From a virus: a stretch of 23,673 nt of DNA. Position 1 is the stretch's first letter, and every line of letters begins with the position of its first letter. Location of the stretch: the IMG/VR virus record IMGVR_UViG_3300031857_001413, positions 1 to 23,673 of that record; one strand, 5' to 3'. The notes below the pieces were generated by a model, which saw nothing but the letters and a program-made list of their open reading frames with translations, was not told where the DNA came from and ran no database searches. Both the position numbers and the translations under genes were made by a program. Below are positions 2,717-13,156 of this stretch, one piece after another.

Positions 2717-2878
2717 GTGGCCACATTAAAAGAGGTCGATAATCGGCTAACAGCCCTTGAGACCAAGGAAGAAGAGCGCTGGAAGGAGACGATCCTCCGC
2801 ATCAAGCGCATTGAGCACATCCTGATCGCTTGCGCGGGCGGGATCATCATGCTGCTCGTCGGTCTTCTGGGTAAGTAA
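2717..2878 (+). CDS. XhlA-like small holin/lysis membrane protein (53 aa)
   Basis: A GTG-initiated gene of 53 residues (VATLKEVDNRLTALETK, then EEERWKETILRIKRIEHI, then a hydrophobic C-terminal stretch of about 19 residues ending VGLLGK). The layout of an N-terminal amphipathic heptad helix followed by one C-terminal membrane helix and a final Lys matches the haemolysin XhlA family, small phage proteins that act with holins at the inner membrane. GGAGAA lies 7 bases upstream of GTG. The stop is separated by one base from the ATG of the next gene, so they are coupled. An ATG at 2701 in another frame opens only a 13-codon peptide. The XhlA call is by pattern, not by alignment. Confidence 0.62.
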   Translation: MATLKEVDNRLTALETKEEERWKETILRIKRIEHILIACAGGIIMLLVGLLGK

Positions 2879-2879
2879 C

Positions 2880-3692
2880 ATGGCCCACAAACGCTATCTC
2901 GCTCTTATCGCTGCCACCAGTGCGGCTTCTATGGTGTTTGCGCAGGCAGCCCCTGCGCCGACGTCGTATGTCTACGACACGACGACGAACAGCACGTCGA
3001 ACAACACCAACACCAATACGTCGGCCAGCACGTCCACTAACACGAACGTGAACACCAGCACGTCTACCAACACGAACACCAACTATAACGTCAACTCTGG
3101 GACGATGACCAACATCAACCAGAACACGTCGACCAGCACGTCCGACAACACCAACCGGAACATAAACACGGACATAAGCAACAGCACGATCAGCCAGAGC
3201 GTGAACAGCACGTCCGATAGCACCAACCGGAACATCAACAGCGACACGATTAACAGCACGGCTTCGACGAACAACGTCAACCAGAACAACAACGTCAACG
3301 TGTCCGACAGCAAGAGCTACAGCGAGAGCGTCAACCGGCAGATAATCGACCAGAACATCAAGTCGCCACCGCCCAGCGCCATCGCGCCAAGCATGATGTC
3401 CTACAGCCAAGATCTCTGCACGACCGGCCAGTCCGGCGCTGTGCAGACGCAGATCATTGGCCTGTCGGCTGGGCGCACTGTGCGCGACCAGAACTGCGAA
3501 CGGATGAAGCTGTCGAAGACCCTGTACGACATGGGCATGCGCGTCGCCGCCGTGAGCCTCCTGTGCCAAGACTTCCGCGTCTTTAGGGCAATGGAGATGG
3601 CCGGAACGCCCTGCCCATTCTTGGGATTGATTGGCGAGGAAGCCCGCGCCGCGTGGACCGAAAACGTCGAGCTTCGCCCTGTCAAGGATTAA
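2880..3692 (+). CDS. Exported Asn/Thr/Ser-rich repeat protein
   Basis: This 270-residue protein begins with a clear Sec signal peptide (MAHKRYLALIAATSAASMVF, cleavage probably after AQA or FA). Residues about 33-155 are a low-complexity tract of Asn, Thr, Ser and Asp with alternating NxNxN patterns and two recurrences of NTNRNIN or STNRNINS. It is likely a repetitive beta-solenoid or an extended hydrophilic spacer. A distinct C-terminal domain (about 170-265) carries four cysteines at 180, 206, 229 and 245, within DLCTTG, DQNCERMKL, LLCQDF and GTPCPF, enough for two disulfides in the periplasm. I recall similar short Cys-containing C-terminal domains in proteobacterial phage proteins beside lysis genes, with no known function. 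No lipobox is present. It sits between an XhlA-like gene and a second exported protein. Confidence 0.7.
   Translation: MAHKRYLALIAATSAASMVFAQAAPAPTSYVYDTTTNSTSNNTNTNTSASTSTNTNVNTSTSTNTNTNYNVNSGTMTNINQNTSTSTSDNTNRNINTDISNSTISQSVNSTSDSTNRNINSDTINSTASTNNVNQNNNVNVSDSKSYSESVNRQIIDQNIKSPPPSAIAPSMMSYSQDLCTTGQSGAVQTQIIGLSAGRTVRDQNCERMKLSKTLYDMGMRVAAVSLLCQDFRVFRAMEMAGTPCPFLGLIGEEARAAWTENVELRPVKD
2976..3344 (+). repeat. Asn/Thr/Ser-coding degenerate tandem repeat
   Basis: About 370 bases are built of AAC, ACC/ACG and AGC codons in short irregular repeats. The clearest copies are a roughly 35-base unit beginning AGCACGTCCGA near 3136 and again near 3208, both encoding STSD(N/S)TNRNIN. The repeats are imperfect, with silent and replacement changes, so they are not a recent exact duplication. 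Confidence 0.7.
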
Positions 3693-3702
3693 GACATACG
3701 CT

Positions 3703-5103
3703 TTGCGGGTGGCCCTCCTGCTGACTTGCGCAACGCCTCTGCGTGCGCAGACCTACGAGCCTGCCTTAGTGACACCGCAGATACTCGGCGCGCCCACGAC
3801 GATGACGCCGCTCAATCTGGGTGACGATAACACGCGTAACGTGGCTCTTGGCTTTGAGTTTGAGTATTGGGGCCAGACGTTCACCGACGCTTGGGTGTCG
3901 TCCAACGGCTTTGTGTCGTTCCAGAGCGGGGCGAATTTATGCTGCGATGGCCAGCCCATCGAAATGGCGCAGCGCAACACGATATACGGCTACTGGTCTG
4001 ACCTGATTAGCTACACCGGCAACCCGTACTTCCGCCGCGACGATGGTTCGATCCTCTTCGGCTGGTATGGCGTGAACGAATACGGCACGAACAACAGTAG
4101 CACCTTCGAGATCGGCCTCTTTGCCGACGGTAAGATACAACTGAATTACGGTAGCCTTGGGTTCTCTGGCGGTCACACTTTTACCGCAGGCATTACTGGC
4201 CCAACTGCGGATGATAACATCCCGCTCTTCTATGGGCGCAACGCGCAGTTCCTACAGAACCAGTCCGGCATCCTGTCGTGGATCGCACCAACCGCTACCG
4301 TTGACTGCGACGTGACGCCTATGGACCCAAGCTGTCCGCCAATCGTCATTGACGCCATCCCAGACCCTGTGGAAGCTATCGCCGAAGCCGCCGCGCAGAG
4401 CGTGGAGCTTGAGCCAGAAGAGATTGAGCAGGTGCAAACGATAGCCGCCGTTGCATTGGAGCGGGCCGAGGAAGCCGCGGTGGTTGCCGAAGACACAACG
4501 GCAGCCGAAGAGGTGGAAGCTACCGCCGAAGTCGTCGCGGCTGACACGGTCGAGCGGCTGGAGCCGGATCAAGTCGCGGCACTGGCCGCAGGCGGCGCCG
4601 ACTTTACCGAGAGCGCGCAACAGCAAGACACCATGCAGGAGATGCAGGAGATGCAGGACGGTTCGTCAACATCGGGCACGTTTACGGCGCAAGTGCGCTT
4701 CGATAACGCTTTCGGCGGGTCGTTCGTGCAAGGGCCGACTATGTCTGTGTCGCAGGGAGCGTCGCCGTTGGACATGGCAATCTCGGCAGGCAGCCCGATG
4801 TCTATGTCTAACACGGTCGAGGCGCTGGGCCTTGGCTCACCTCAGCCTTCAGCCGCCGGCGGAAATGCCCCACCATCCGACAGCGGAATATCTGAAGGCG
4901 AGAGCGAAACCATCGCGGCGATGGGAGCCGTGCCGGGCTTCGCCGCGTACACGCAGGCGTCGTTGCAAGATAGGGCTGACTTTTACGCAATTCGTGATAT
5001 ATACCGCAGACGTAGGCTGCAAGACGCAAACTTTGAGATGTATCGTATGATGCAGACGAACGATGCCCGATGGCAGGAGATGGTAGATGAGCAGTACAGA
5101 TGA
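3703..5103 (+). CDS. Exported protein with nidogen-like (NIDO) domain
   Basis: The protein has about 466 residues. The frame has no ATG near its beginning. Candidate starts are TTG 3631 (inside the previous gene, 62-base overlap), ATT 3688, TTG 3703 and GTG 3709. TTG 3703 is chosen tentatively because it gives a short signal peptide (RVALLLTCATPLRAQ) with AAGGA 14 bases upstream; ATT 3688 would add KTYAL and overlap the preceding stop. Residues 42-188 resemble a nidogen-like domain (EYWGQTFTDAWVSSNGFVSF, later GYWSDL, ILFGWYGV, FEIGLFADGKIQLNYG). An Ala/Glu-rich helical stretch (217-306), a Met/Gln/Ser-rich linker and a conserved-looking tail (DFYAIRDIYRRR, then WQEMVDEQYR) follow. It overlaps the next gene by 17 bases. 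NIDO domains are extracellular adhesion-type domains. Its role in a phage is unknown, possibly in the envelope during lysis. Confidence 0.66.
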   Translation: MRVALLLTCATPLRAQTYEPALVTPQILGAPTTMTPLNLGDDNTRNVALGFEFEYWGQTFTDAWVSSNGFVSFQSGANLCCDGQPIEMAQRNTIYGYWSDLISYTGNPYFRRDDGSILFGWYGVNEYGTNNSSTFEIGLFADGKIQLNYGSLGFSGGHTFTAGITGPTADDNIPLFYGRNAQFLQNQSGILSWIAPTATVDCDVTPMDPSCPPIVIDAIPDPVEAIAEAAAQSVELEPEEIEQVQTIAAVALERAEEAAVVAEDTTAAEEVEATAEVVAADTVERLEPDQVAALAAGGADFTESAQQQDTMQEMQEMQDGSSTSGTFTAQVRFDNAFGGSFVQGPTMSVSQGASPLDMAISAGSPMSMSNTVEALGLGSPQPSAAGGNAPPSDSGISEGESETIAAMGAVPGFAAYTQASLQDRADFYAIRDIYRRRRLQDANFEMYRMMQTNDARWQEMVDEQYR

Positions 5104-5608
5104 GGAGCCCAAGGTCGCCTTCGACGAGAGCGGCTTTAGCTTTAACATCGGCGGCCTGAGCAGCGGCAAGATCGCTATTATCTTCGCGGCTATATCGACT
5201 ATCGTCGGCGGTCTGTGGGCCGGTTTCCAAGTGTATCAGCAGTTCTTGACCATGAAGGAGGTCACGGCGGCCTATGTGCCGCCTGACTTGTCAGGTATTA
5301 ACAGCCAGATTTCCGTGCTGAATGAGCGCGTCACCAGCGTCGAGCGTCTGACCAAGGGCAACAGCGAGGCGCTGAACTACCTGACCGGCTCGATCTCCAG
5401 CAGCGTAGGCGCAACGCGCCAGACGGTTGACGCGGTGTCGAGCAGCGTTCGGAACAGCGACGCGCAGAATATGCAAATGCAGCGCGCTATCATAGACCAA
5501 CTGCGTGAGCAGGACAGGGAGCAACAGCGTCGTATCAAGGAACTCGAGACTGAGACGGCTGCACGTATTCAAAAGACGCTGGCGAACCCGCTGGCCGGAA
5601 AGGACTGA
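5087..5608 (+). CDS. Membrane-anchored coiled-coil protein, spanin-like topology
   Basis: This 173-residue protein has a 28-residue acidic N-terminus, one membrane helix (about 29-48, within KIAIIFAAISTIVGG) and a long hydrophilic helical region (70-165) with heptad spacing (ISVLNERVTSVERL; REQDREQQRRIKELE). One N-terminal membrane helix plus a coiled-coil tail is the layout of inner-membrane spanins (Rz), which link inner and outer membrane in the last step of Gram-negative lysis. I see no partner lipoprotein (o-spanin), so the spanin role remains inference; a minor virion or holin-associated protein is an alternative. GGAG lies 7 bases before ATG. The gene overlaps both neighbours, by 17 bases upstream and by 1 base (TGATG) downstream, indicating coupling within the lysis region. 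Confidence 0.6.
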   Translation: MSSTDEEPKVAFDESGFSFNIGGLSSGKIAIIFAAISTIVGGLWAGFQVYQQFLTMKEVTAAYVPPDLSGINSQISVLNERVTSVERLTKGNSEALNYLTGSISSSVGATRQTVDAVSSSVRNSDAQNMQMQRAIIDQLREQDREQQRRIKELETETAARIQKTLANPLAGKD

Positions 5609-6084
5609 TGATGGAAGATAAACTGATGGACGCGCGCATCAAGGCGCTTCTTATGGCGGCCCGCACGATGGCGTTCGTCATTTGCACTATCACCGTTGCC
5701 ATGATCGCGGGCTTGTTCGTATCGAACGAAGTGATCGACAACAAGGATGTCTTTGGCCTCCTCAGCTACGTCATGACCTCGGTTGTCGGCGCTGTGGCTG
5801 GCTCTTACGCCACGCTGATGGGCATGAAGGGCGAGCTCGTCCCGCCTCCGCCAGAAGACCGCGACGATCCTGAGCCAGAACCCGCTCCAGAGCCTATGGC
5901 CCCGCCGCCTGCCCCTGTGGCGCCTGAGCCAGAACTCGAGCTGACTGAGCCTGTCGAAGACGATGATGATGACGACGATATGGAGCCTTGGGAGAAGTAT
6001 CGCGGTGACCTGCGCTACGACGCAAACGGCGACGGCGTAGTTGACGAGAATGACTTTCCTGATTGGCGGAGTGCTGGCAAATGA
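5608..6084 (+). CDS. Two-helix holin candidate with C-terminal EF-hand/dockerin-type loop
   Basis: This 158-residue protein has two membrane helices (about 18-38 and 48-70), followed by a Pro/Glu-rich linker (75-116), a run of seven Asp (118-124) and a C-terminal calcium-binding-type loop at 138-149 with D1, N3, D5, D9 and D12 (DANGDGVVDEND). Two N-terminal hairpinned helices immediately before an endolysin gene suit a class II holin, which opens the inner membrane to release the endolysin. The acidic, calcium-loop tail is not a usual holin feature. ATG 5608 overlaps the preceding stop; ATG 5611 has better spacing from the GGAAAGGA site. The stop overlaps the endolysin start (ATGA). The function is inferred from topology and position. 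Confidence 0.62.
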   Translation: MMEDKLMDARIKALLMAARTMAFVICTITVAMIAGLFVSNEVIDNKDVFGLLSYVMTSVVGAVAGSYATLMGMKGELVPPPPEDRDDPEPEPAPEPMAPPPAPVAPEPELELTEPVEDDDDDDDMEPWEKYRGDLRYDANGDGVVDENDFPDWRSAGK

Positions 6085-6695
6085 GCTTAATGAACCTTCA
6101 AGATAAATGTGGGTGCCATCCAGATGCCGCGTTTGGTCCGGGAACCCTGAAGGCCGCATGTGCGCACTTCAAGCTGAATAAGAACCGCGCCGCGCATTTC
6201 TTCGCTCAGACGGCGCACGAGAGCGGTAACTTCAAGGCGTTCAGCGAGAACCTGAACTACGGCGCGAAAGGTCTGCGTGGCATCTTCGGGAAGTACTTTC
6301 CGACCGACGCGCTGGCCAAGGCTTACGAACGCCAGCCGCAGAAGATTGCCAACCGCGTCTACGCCAACCGTATGGGCAACGGCGATGAAGCGTCAGGCGA
6401 CGGCTGGAAATACCGGGGACGAGGCCCGCTCCAGCTCACTGGCAAGAACAACTACCGCGCATTCGGTAAGTATATTGGCCGCGAACAAGAGGTGTTGGAC
6501 AACCCAGACCTTGTGGCTACCGAACTGGGCTTTGAAAGCGCCCTGTGGTTCTTCGACGCAAACAAGCTGTGGTCGATCTGCGATCAGGGCATCAATGACG
6601 CTGCCATCCTCGCGCTGACAAAGCGCATCAATGGTGGTACACACGGCCTCGACGACCGTAAAATGAAAACCAAGAAGTATGCTACTTGGCTCTAA
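6081..6695 (+). CDS. Endolysin, glycoside hydrolase family 19
   Basis: This 204-residue muralytic enzyme of the chitinase-like GH19 family would cleave the glycan backbone of peptidoglycan after holin-mediated release. Visible family hallmarks are FFAQTAHESGNF with the putative acid Glu47, SENLNYGAKGL with Glu56 as the second catalytic acid, KYRGRGPLQLTGKNNY and a C-terminal TKRINGGTHGLDDR. The N-terminus has CGCHPDAAFGPGTL, similar to the opening of other phage GH19 lysins. There is no signal peptide, consistent with holin-dependent export. The start is ATG 6081, which overlaps the holin stop as ATGA and has GGAG 9 bases upstream; an in-frame TTG at 6063 is less likely. Length suits a single-domain phage lysin with no separate cell-wall-binding domain. 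Confidence 0.93.
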   Translation: MSLMNLQDKCGCHPDAAFGPGTLKAACAHFKLNKNRAAHFFAQTAHESGNFKAFSENLNYGAKGLRGIFGKYFPTDALAKAYERQPQKIANRVYANRMGNGDEASGDGWKYRGRGPLQLTGKNNYRAFGKYIGREQEVLDNPDLVATELGFESALWFFDANKLWSICDQGINDAAILALTKRINGGTHGLDDRKMKTKKYATWL

Positions 6696-6705
6696 GGAGG
6701 ACGTT

Positions 6706-6873
6706 ATGAATATCAAAAACCTTATCAAAGGCGTTGTCGTTAAAGAAGCGACTAAGTCTGTTATCGGCCAAACAATCCCAGCCGTCAGCAAGAAGGGCAT
6801 CTCAAAGGGCAAAATGACCCTTGGCGCTCTCGTTTTGGCGATTGCGGGCCTCTTATTCGAGTACCTTTCCTAA
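6706..6873 (+). CDS. Small single-helix membrane protein (55 aa)
   Basis: This 55-residue protein has a Lys-rich N-terminal two-thirds (MNIKNLIKGVVVKEATK) and a C-terminal membrane helix (about 37-54, GALVLAIAGLLFEYL). The start at ATG 6706 is set by a perfect AAGGAGG six bases upstream that follows the endolysin stop; an in-frame ATG at 6679 inside the endolysin gene lacks such a site. Position directly after the endolysin suggests an additional holin, antiholin or other lysis helper. No family is recognised. Confidence 0.6.
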   Translation: MNIKNLIKGVVVKEATKSVIGQTIPAVSKKGISKGKMTLGALVLAIAGLLFEYLS

Positions 6874-10413: not shown

Positions 10414-10646
10414 TGATAGATCCGCGCGGCATGACTTTACGAGATTGGGCAGATAGTGTTATATTGTCCAATGGAGACGCTTGGTCGTTCGGGAAACTGG
10501 AAGACGATGCGGATTGGCAAGACTGGGCCGCTGGGTTTGTACGCGCACAGCCATTTGTGCAGCGCAACCCGCCAAACCCTTATCAATTTGACGACTGGCG
10601 GGAATGGGCGATGAGAGCTTACCCAATGCTTGAAGGACAGGGTTAA
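10413..10646 (+). CDS. Small Trp-rich protein between nozzle and ejection genes
   Basis: This 77-residue protein contains six Trp and several acidic residues (TLRDWADSVIL, DAWSFGKLEDDADWQDWAAG, QFDDWREWAMRAYP). It has no signal peptide or membrane helix. The pattern looks like a conserved small protein that recurs at this place in podovirus-like aquatic phages, but I know no function. A role in tail completion or assembly is inferred from position. ATG 10413 overlaps the nozzle stop (TGATG); ATG 10431 is an alternative. Its stop overlaps the next start (TAATG at 10644-10648), with AAGGA 8 bases before that start encoded in its own last codons. Confidence 0.65.
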   Translation: MIDPRGMTLRDWADSVILSNGDAWSFGKLEDDADWQDWAAGFVRAQPFVQRNPPNPYQFDDWREWAMRAYPMLEGQG

Positions 10647-13156
10647 TGGCAGTAGATATGCGAGCTCGCTATTTTGGGGAATTCGACGAGGGCGCGATGC
10701 CGCCGTCCTTTAGCGTATACCCCCAGTACGAGCTTCCTAATAGCGATTTTATGGTTATGCCTCCTGCCGCAGCGCAAGCCCCTGCGCAACAGTATCTGCC
10801 CGCCGTGCAGCCGATGACACAGGAAGCTGCTGCGCCTTACGACCTGAGCGGACTGGATTTGAGCGGCCTCGACAGCCTGTACGGAATGAACTTCGGTACA
10901 GACTTTGGCGGCGGCGCTATGGGTGGAATATATCCAGACGATCCGAATACCGAATTCATTGCTGCGCCGCTATCCAACAAAGGCAACGCCACTTCGCAGA
11001 CAGGCGGCAACGCTTTCGAGGTGAGGGTCGATCAGCCGGTGCGCCTCGTTGACCATAGCACCAATCAGGTTGTGTTCGAGGGTACAGGCTACGACGCTGC
11101 ACGCAAGGCGACCGAATTGGGCCAGGGCTTGTCCGACACCCTTGGCCGTAAAGCGAACTACAGCATCCAAACCGCAGACCCGACTGGCAACTATTCGACT
11201 GTCGCGTACGAGAAGAAGAACAAGAGCACGCTGGGCGAGATTGCCAACGTGGCGGGCACCGTTCTGCCGCTGGCGATGATGGCCATACCGGGTGTCAACG
11301 CAGCTTTGCTTGGCACTAAACTTGCCGCAACTACTGCGGGTCAGATTGCTATGGGGGCGCTCACTGGCGCGGCAAGCTCTGGTCTAAAAGGCCAGAACGT
11401 CCTCAAGGGTGCTGCATTAGGCGGTCTGACGGCGGCTGGGGGCGCGCTAATACCTAAGATACCGGCAATCGGTGATTTAGGCAATTTGGCTAGACCGATT
11501 GGCACAGGCATCGGCGCGACCGCAGGTGGCTTGGCCACAGGTCAAAGCCTGAAGAACTCACTCCTCGGCGGCGTTGCCTCCGGCGCTCTTGCTTACGCAG
11601 CGCCCAGCATTCAAGGCGCTATTAAAGGTATAGGCCAAGGGCCTAATCTTAGCACTGGCAGTGCCCCCAGCGCCACCCCCAGCGGTCCCGCACCGATAGC
11701 AACGGTCACTGCAAACACCGGCTTCTCGCCCCCTGTCTCATTCGGCGGTGGGTCATCCCCGCAGACCAAAGTGGCGGAACTTGAACCGCCCGCCACAATC
11801 GTTTCAGGCTCAGGCTCGCCGTTTGCCGCTGCGTTCCCTATACCCTCGAACGTACTCTCAATGGCGCAGCCGACGCCCAAGTCCGCAGCCGACAAGATGG
11901 CTGAAGAAGAACTTATCAAGGTGACGGGGGAGCGCTTCGGCGCTGTTTCGCCAAATGTAGTTATCCCCGACAGCGGGCTGTCGCCAGAAGTACTTCGTGC
12001 GGTTAACGGGCCAGAGGCCGCACCCAATGCGATTGATCAGACGGCGGCAGGTGAAAACGACCTCATCAAGGTGACGGGGGAGCGCTTCGGCGCTGTTTCG
12101 CCAAATGTAGTCATCCCAACTAGCGACGCTCGTGGACCACTTAGCTCCGTGGTTGACGGCATGGATACCACTACCGGTGAGATTGTGGCGGAAGGCAATC
12201 GCTTCCGTACGGTTACGCCAAACGTAGTCATCCCCGACAGCGCGCTGTCGCCAGAAGTACTTCGTGCGATTAACAAGCCAGCCGAAGAGCCTCTTATCAA
12301 GGTCACTGGGCGGCAGACTACTACACCGCCAGTTTTATGGGGCGTTGATAAGCCTTTGCCGGACTTGTCTAAGACGGACGCTGAAGCTGAAGCTGAGAAG
12401 AAAAAGAAGCTCAGCGTTGCTGATGCGCTCGCCCTTCTTAAGCTTGCTGACGGCCTTATAGGCGGTGGCGGTGGTGGCGGGGGAGGCGGCGCGGCCGGCT
12501 CTCAGGCAATCAACCCTATCTTCTCGGCCAAACTGCCCACGCCCGGCGCAGGTGGCGCGTTCAAGGTCGGCGGTCTCGACTACACGACACCGCCTGCACG
12601 CTCTGCGGCTGATATGTATCGCTACGCCATGGGCCCTGCGATGGACATCCCCGCTGGCATGGACTTGCGCGGCGCTACATCGCCATACGCTGGCTACGGC
12701 CCAGGCACACTAGGCGAGGAGACCTTCAGGCGGGTCGCCGAAGGTGGCGCATTCGCTATGCCTGATCAACTAAGAACGCCTGGGCCTATCACCACGCCGA
12801 TACCAAACGAACCTGCTGGCCCGTCGATGTACGCCCCTGACGTTGACAACATGCGTTTCGCGCAGGGTGGAGCATTCGCCGCAAAGCGCGGTGGCTCATC
12901 CCGCGATAGCTTCGCCGTTGACGGCCCCGGCACTGGTCGCTCGGACGACATCCCTGCGGTGCTTTCCGATGGCGAATATGTGATTGACGCAGAGACCGTT
13001 GCCCTCCTGGGCGATGGCTCAAGCAAAGCTGGCGCAAAGAAACTCGATGAGATGCGCGTAAAAGTTCGTAAACATAAAGGCCGCAACTTGGCTAAGGGCA
13101 AGTTTAGTGTTAATGCTAAGCGGCCTGAGAAATACCTGTCAGGAGGACGTACGTAA
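10646..13156 (+). CDS. Large internal virion / ejection protein candidate (836 aa)
   Basis: Composition is Ala, Gly, Pro and Ser rich. Parts in order: a disordered N-terminus with LSGLDLSGLDSL; a small compact part (about 115-190, FEVRVDQPVRLVDH and ATELGQGLSDTLGRKANYSI); a Gly/Ala-rich hydrophobic helical part (about 195-320, GTVLPLAMMAIPGVNAALLG) that could insert into or cross a membrane; a Pro/Ser-rich linker; four copies of an IKVTG-type repeat (about 423-555); a Glu/Lys helix; ten consecutive Gly (606-615); and a C-terminal conserved-looking domain (about 745-800, RSDDIPAVLSDGEYVIDAET) with a basic tail. Such mixed disordered and membrane-active proteins after the nozzle gene are typical of podoviral DNA-ejection proteins. 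AAGGA lies 8 bases before ATG. The role is inferred. Confidence 0.62.
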   Translation: MAVDMRARYFGEFDEGAMPPSFSVYPQYELPNSDFMVMPPAAAQAPAQQYLPAVQPMTQEAAAPYDLSGLDLSGLDSLYGMNFGTDFGGGAMGGIYPDDPNTEFIAAPLSNKGNATSQTGGNAFEVRVDQPVRLVDHSTNQVVFEGTGYDAARKATELGQGLSDTLGRKANYSIQTADPTGNYSTVAYEKKNKSTLGEIANVAGTVLPLAMMAIPGVNAALLGTKLAATTAGQIAMGALTGAASSGLKGQNVLKGAALGGLTAAGGALIPKIPAIGDLGNLARPIGTGIGATAGGLATGQSLKNSLLGGVASGALAYAAPSIQGAIKGIGQGPNLSTGSAPSATPSGPAPIATVTANTGFSPPVSFGGGSSPQTKVAELEPPATIVSGSGSPFAAAFPIPSNVLSMAQPTPKSAADKMAEEELIKVTGERFGAVSPNVVIPDSGLSPEVLRAVNGPEAAPNAIDQTAAGENDLIKVTGERFGAVSPNVVIPTSDARGPLSSVVDGMDTTTGEIVAEGNRFRTVTPNVVIPDSALSPEVLRAINKPAEEPLIKVTGRQTTTPPVLWGVDKPLPDLSKTDAEAEAEKKKKLSVADALALLKLADGLIGGGGGGGGGGAAGSQAINPIFSAKLPTPGAGGAFKVGGLDYTTPPARSAADMYRYAMGPAMDIPAGMDLRGATSPYAGYGPGTLGEETFRRVAEGGAFAMPDQLRTPGPITTPIPNEPAGPSMYAPDVDNMRFAQGGAFAAKRGGSSRDSFAVDGPGTGRSDDIPAVLSDGEYVIDAETVALLGDGSSKAGAKKLDEMRVKVRKHKGRNLAKGKFSVNAKRPEKYLSGGRT
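11915..11967 (+). repeat. 53-base direct repeat, copy 1
   Basis: This copy matches 12065-12117 with a single base difference (T at 11962, C at 12112). It encodes IKVTGERFGAVSPNVVIP. The copies are 150 bases apart, so the reading frame is kept. A longer diverged match (11933-12007 against 12200-12274, both 75 bases) overlaps this copy. Confidence 0.9.
12065..12117 (+). repeat. 53-base direct repeat, copy 2
   Basis: Near-identical to 11915-11967 and in the same frame. It is followed by a different sequence (TSDARGPLSS) instead of the DSGLSPEVLR continuation seen after copy 1, so duplication boundaries differ at the 3' side. Confidence 0.9.
12200..12274 (+). repeat. 75-base diverged repeat, copy 3
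   Basis: This aligns with 11933-12007 without gaps. The first half has several differences and the second half (CCCCGACAGCG onward, encoding PDSALSPEVLRAIN) is nearly identical. It shows that the ancestral unit spanned the VTPNVVIP and SPEVLR parts together. Confidence 0.85.

Follow-up and report, generated by a model that had tools for sequence, protein, structure and literature searches.

A three-gene cassette of exported and membrane proteins in marine and freshwater phages, with a possible role at the host envelope around lysis

The described systems closest to the locus analysed here are the two-component spanins (Rz/Rz1), the T4 protein Spackle (PF25676) and the NIDO domains (Pfam PF06119). 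NIDO domains are, like CBM-like domains, adhesion and glycan modules. A published survey of 677 phages could recognise no spanin in 91 of them (PMC6139136). The locus, a cassette of three genes here called P1, P2 and P3, resembles the two-component spanins in that P3 is predicted to combine an N-terminal transmembrane segment (TM) with a coiled coil, in that the cassette lies beside holin and endolysin genes in the lineage of the window, and in that the relatives in roseophages have a small lipoprotein partner. Unlike these spanins, the window has no lipoprotein subunit by a heuristic scan and encodes two extra large exported proteins, P1 and P2; no sequence similarity to spanins was found, and the cassette coexists with true Rz/Rz1 genes in some relatives. 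SAR11 and the roseobacters rank with the most common bacteria of the sea; to our knowledge, the way in which their phages open the outer membrane is poorly known. Being found in phages of both, the cassette bears on this question and opens it to direct tests, its three genes forming a constant unit whose parts are defined; it also gives annotation a foothold in several families of proteins that at present carry the label hypothetical.

The window (the whole stretch of DNA analysed, a virus record of 23,673 bases) carries, in this order, genes for an XhlA-like protein, P1, P2, P3, a holin-like protein, a GH19 endolysin and a small basic TM protein (Table 1), and in the list of its open reading frames the gene ends overlap from P2 through P3, holin and endolysin to the small protein. 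The initial annotation had singled out two genes at 2880-5103 as the unit. Both reading frames are real and conserved as proteins in well over 100 viral contigs, and the two do occur together, but P3 and the exchange of the P2 N-domain had been missed: the unit is a fixed cassette of three genes, not two. The absence of the pair from relatives had been named as a point against a system; in two scans of viral contigs for the P1 domain, which gave at least 600 rows each, P2 follows P1 in 183 loci with a complete P2 among the matches listed (127 distinct sequences). P3 with a terminal NPL is likewise present, among the matches listed, in 173 of 174 loci with room for it; only HTVC115P differs, its TM-coiled-coil protein lacking the NPL. 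Roseophage-type loci have P2 and P3 without exception (77/77), and in 11 loci first scored as lacking P2 both genes lie slightly further downstream, in most cases after an additional TM-coiled-coil gene. Across distant groups P3 is homologous (97.7% and 97.6% in profile comparisons), and the relatives read in detail encode, after P1, an exported protein and then a small one that in most cases combines a single TM with a coiled coil and in most cases has NPL at its end. An extra gene, whose product has a coiled coil and a single TM (KISENTSVSMPMKN...) and is similar to the P3 of HTVC115P, was seen between P1 and P2 in L214, L187, L190, L168, L171 and L197.

Table 1. Coordinates of the cassette, its neighbours and the lipoprotein relatives of P1 (window positions unless a locus is named)
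Feature	Coordinates	Strand	Basis or remark
Small XhlA-like protein, coiled coil and C-terminal TM	2717..2878	+	sequence, hydropathy
P1, exported: a signal sequence, then the Asn/Thr/Ser tract, then a C-terminal domain with four cysteines	2880..3692	+	
P1 signal sequence, predicted cleavage between MVFA and QA	2880..2942	+	sequence; no other hydrophobic segment in P1
P1 low-complexity tract, strict two-residue alternation, 12-residue periodicity	2967..3365	+	very low-confidence model
P1 four-cysteine domain, four predicted helices	3366..3689	+	pLDDT 77-92 across helical part
P2, exported modular protein	3631..5103	+	longest ORF; likely start TTG 3703
P2 signal sequence if the start is the conserved TTG, cleavage between MRVALLLTCATPLRA and Q	3703..3747	+	
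P2 NIDO-like beta domain	3748..4287	+	hhalign; model pLDDT mostly 80-96
P2 conserved C-terminal module	4876..5100	+	common to relatives with a different N-domain
P3: one N-terminal TM (~5165-5233), coiled coil, C-terminal NPLAG	5087..5608	+	i-spanin-like layout
Holin-like protein, two hydrophobic segments, acidic tail, EF-hand-like motif	5608..6084	+	cassette neighbour
GH19 endolysin	6063..6695	+	Pfam Glyco_hydro_19 E 2e-12; PHROG 181 endolysin E 3.4e-65
Small basic protein, C-terminal TM	6679..6873	+	occupies slot of Rz/Rz1 in some relatives
Four-cysteine lipoproteins	L272:4600-4857; L166 ~1724-1933; L273:886-1098		unannotated or unnamed in roseophage records

The P1 domain occurs in the Pelagibacter phages HTVC115P, Mosig, HTVC202P, HTVC023P, HTVC033P and Baldr, in uvMED S28-C10, in the roseophages CRP-207 and CRP-810 and in two spring-water phages, and the cassettes fall into groups from pelagiphages, roseophages and freshwater phages. 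Among 84,980 bacterial and archaeal species genomes it was found in six contigs, all of them from MAGs and 4-20 kb long, as expected for phage sequence binned with its hosts. As far as we could find, the P1, P2 and P3 families are undescribed, and no description of the cassette was found, in keeping with the earlier suggestion of an undescribed system; in the literature searched there was no paper on phage nidogen domains and no pelagiphage virion proteomics bearing on the cassette. A published pelagiphage transcriptome covers HTVC022P and HTVC027P (PMC12753301). Since tblastn found no P1 in the records of these two phages, that transcriptome does not time the cassette.

Both P1 and P2 had been read as Sec-exported proteins with no further membrane helix, and no segment of either reaches transmembrane hydrophobicity. 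The Asn/Thr/Ser repeat tract claimed for P1 (139 residues, among them 35 N, 28 T and 28 S) is confirmed as non-random: identity at lag 2 is 0.35, compared to 0.15 after shuffling (z 6.4), with peaks at lags 12, 24 and 36, and the two-residue alternation is kept in 150 homologous tracts. The four-cysteine domain was also borne out, its C, C, CQD and CP being invariant in 40 diverse homologues. P1 matches PHROG 20531 as a member would (E 1.4e-14), but this entry carries no function and supplies a name, not an explanation; structure comparison found no PDB fold matching the P1 domain. The alternation and the repeat of about 12 residues are as in beta-solenoid or fibre proteins, and together with the NIDO- and CBM-like N-domains of P2 they would suit adhesive or matrix proteins, P1 as an extended beta fibre and P2 as an adhesin that the infected cell displays or releases, for instance holding the lysate or aggregating cells. 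However, the tract varies among homologues between next to none and almost 500 residues, with very short ones in pelagiphages, whereas the four-cysteine domain stays constant. Moreover, no outer-membrane export machinery is encoded beside the cassette and P3 is left unexplained, so that we consider adhesion quite unlikely.

To judge from the sequence, the true start of P2 is probably TTG 3703 and not 3631, the longest-ORF rule being too early: in the window's clade this TTG is conserved fifteen codons before the mature start, and in L095, a close relative, it is the first start codon within 30 codons upstream. The cleavage region of the signal is conserved. The statement that neither exported protein has a lipobox holds for the window, although its P2 does have LLTC, not conserved as a lipobox, ahead of the signal-peptidase site. 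A NIDO-like domain had been proposed for P2, and a profile of 16 P2 N-domains aligned with a profile of seven NIDO domains from bacterial genomes over about 100 columns (hhalign 97.5%, E 5.8e-12), compared to 0.1% for the control of the NIDO profile against P1. The Pfam NIDO model nevertheless misses P2, with no match even at E 10 and its gathering score not reached, and the domain stands alone on a phage C-terminal module. The initial annotation had counted a lack of NIDO fold as evidence against its reading; the profile comparison supports a NIDO-like domain, and the model, confident in its beta domain, had no significant match to a solved structure in the PDB and yields no function from the fold. 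In BFVD a single close homologue came up, together with a small number of weak matches from phages. The helical spacer noted earlier is only partly in the model, which has helices at mature residues 207-256 but falls below pLDDT 50 over most of residues 249-382, and the supposed basic tail turns out to be the conserved C-terminal module (FYxxRDIYR...DANFEMYR...MVDEQYR), basic only locally.

What lies ahead of this module differs between relatives: the P2 N-domains comprise a NIDO-like type, a CBM-like type, a second, NPGF-type group and singletons. The C-terminal module is common to the NIDO and NPGF groups (hhalign 99.4%, E 4.7e-22, 37% identity), whereas their N-domains show no convincing match (19.7% over 23 columns). 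Pelagiphage P2 proteins end in the same FY..IY motif, at a profile probability of only 16%, and their N-domains match CBM_4_9 weakly (E 0.009-0.02, below the cut-off) where the window has its NIDO-like domain. The P2 of roseophages is related to the others, if at all, beyond profile recognition, with no relationship recognisable. On these comparisons, the NIDO-like domain is an exchangeable module on a conserved C-terminal one. Because a tree of the P1 domain (99 rows) needs only about six changes of N-domain type, replacement is real but rare, and frequent shuffling was rejected.

In the roseophages CRP-810 and CRP-207 and in ct7L0027, a protein of 70-86 residues with a lipobox-type start and a four-cysteine domain is encoded directly before P1. 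Its domain matches that of P1 (hhalign 93.4%, E 2.5e-7), and a profile of two of the lipoproteins searched against all reading frames of the loci found, besides these lipoproteins, almost only P1 proteins. Wherever a roseophage-type locus has room for it (64 of 64), the lipoprotein precedes P1, which places the four-cysteine domain at a lipoprotein anchor; the strict lipobox pattern is present in 43 of 77, the others being variants such as TTAC or frames open further upstream. A heuristic scan found no such lipoprotein in the window or in the complete Pelagibacter phages HTVC202P and Baldr. The labels 'OmpA family' and 'lysozyme' on CRP-810 proteins near the lipoprotein had no Pfam support and were rejected. 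A lipoprotein version of the P1 domain also argues against ordinary tail or fibre components with hydrophobic N-termini by chance. The upstream neighbours of the cassette are tail-fibre-like (DUF7483; Pfam, PHROG), and the P2 model is weakly like a few annotated phage surface proteins, but the conserved cleavage region of the P2 signal, the four conserved cysteines and the strict linkage to the membrane protein P3 make this origin very improbable.

The cassette probably acts in the outer layers of the infected cell around lysis. Tentatively, the best mechanism appears to be that of a late, envelope-spanning, spanin-like complex that helps to breach the outer membrane. In its favour stand the constant linkage of the three genes, the export signals of P1 and P2, the membrane-anchored coiled coil of P3, the disulphide-type domain of P1 with its lipoprotein version and the exchanged binding-type domain of P2, a combination best suited to a complex bridging the envelope. 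P1, P2 and P3 would be parts of one complex in the host envelope, with P3 in the inner membrane and its coiled coil presumably in the periplasm. The NPL end of P3 and the C-terminal module of P2 would contact the P1 domain, in which two disulphides are expected, and the N-domain of P2 and the extended tract of P1 may extend to glycan in the wall or the outer membrane. Expressed late, the complex would bridge the envelope and, once the endolysin has cut the wall, help to breach or destabilise the outer membrane, doing spanin-like work through a different architecture. It is possible, though doubtful, that this represents an undescribed class of phage envelope machine that serves to breach the outer membrane or carries out a new step of lysis in ocean and freshwater phages, including SAR11 phages in which no classical spanin was seen. 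Several observations speak against a spanin-like role, however: the P1 and P2 of the window lack a lipobox and have no evident outer-membrane anchor, the fold comparisons gave no function, and the P2 of roseophages lies beyond recognition by profiles of the others.

The genomic setting bears on the spanin-like role in both directions. The placement in a lysis region, as first described, stands for the window's lineage, where 113 of 123 loci have an endolysin within 1.5 kb after P3, but not for most pelagiphage-type loci, only 11 of 56 of which have an M15 endolysin beside the cassette; two endolysin types were searched, and some of the loci counted share a contig. The cassette is not next to the endolysin in Mosig and several pelagiphages, and in HTVC202P, Baldr and S28-C10 it stands, likewise apart from the endolysin, directly before the large terminase gene. 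An overlapping Rz/Rz1 pair follows GH19 directly in six relatives (L039, L047, L051, L063, L066 and L095). The window and most relatives have none in this slot; the window, possibly a fragment, showed no other spanin. The coexistence in these six weakens a simple replacement of Rz/Rz1 by P1-P3, and the cassette is thus not simply these phages' missing spanin.

The same independence from Rz/Rz1, and the cassettes of Mosig and several pelagiphages with no adjoining endolysin, would fit superinfection exclusion or surface remodelling, in which the exported proteins sit in the periplasm or on the surface of the infected cell and keep later phages from using receptors, digesting the wall or bringing in DNA, and the exchanged N-domain follows the surface target. 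The binding-type domain of P2 is exchangeable, and P1 is an exported, phage-specific protein whose small helical domain shares disulphide-type cysteines and a local DLC motif with Spackle, yet has four invariant cysteines compared to one disulphide there. Homology to Spackle was tried and rejected (Pfam E 0.15, hhalign 3.2%, no fold match). In the window's lineage, overlap with lysis genes makes late expression probable, and constancy across very different phages would be unusual for exclusion genes; exclusion, the main rival to the spanin-like role, is therefore unlikely. Coexistence with Rz/Rz1 is also compatible with lysis timing or envelope maintenance, the complex bracing the envelope or restraining holin and endolysin until assembly is complete. 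The synteny and the envelope-spanning layout would serve this equally, but no likeness to known antiholins or lysozyme inhibitors was found, and we hold it to be decidedly unlikely.

Neither a promoter nor a terminator stood out above chance. The XhlA-like gene is an upstream neighbour and not a constant member, having a close homologue in few relatives; a similar small protein lies ahead of P1 in CRP-810 and ct7L0027. Directly upstream of the cassette, 2342-2704 encodes a DUF5856 protein with a weak ferritin/Dps-like signal. The slot of the small basic protein at 6679-6873 holds, in L002, L025, L049, L066, L111 and others, a protein of 50-66 residues that begins with a basic amphipathic stretch and has a single TM at its C-terminus; it was seen in most window-type relatives with the slot read, including two with Rz/Rz1, and is possibly a further membrane-acting lysis protein. 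The EF-hand-like motif of the holin-like protein is DANGDGVVDENDF, and a membrane protein of CRP-207 (L166:3870-4226), otherwise different, has a similar one, DEDGDGIITDDE. Elsewhere in the window, the large protein encoded at 10646-13156 has an internal repeat, LIKVTGERFGAVSPNVVIP..., visible in the translation.
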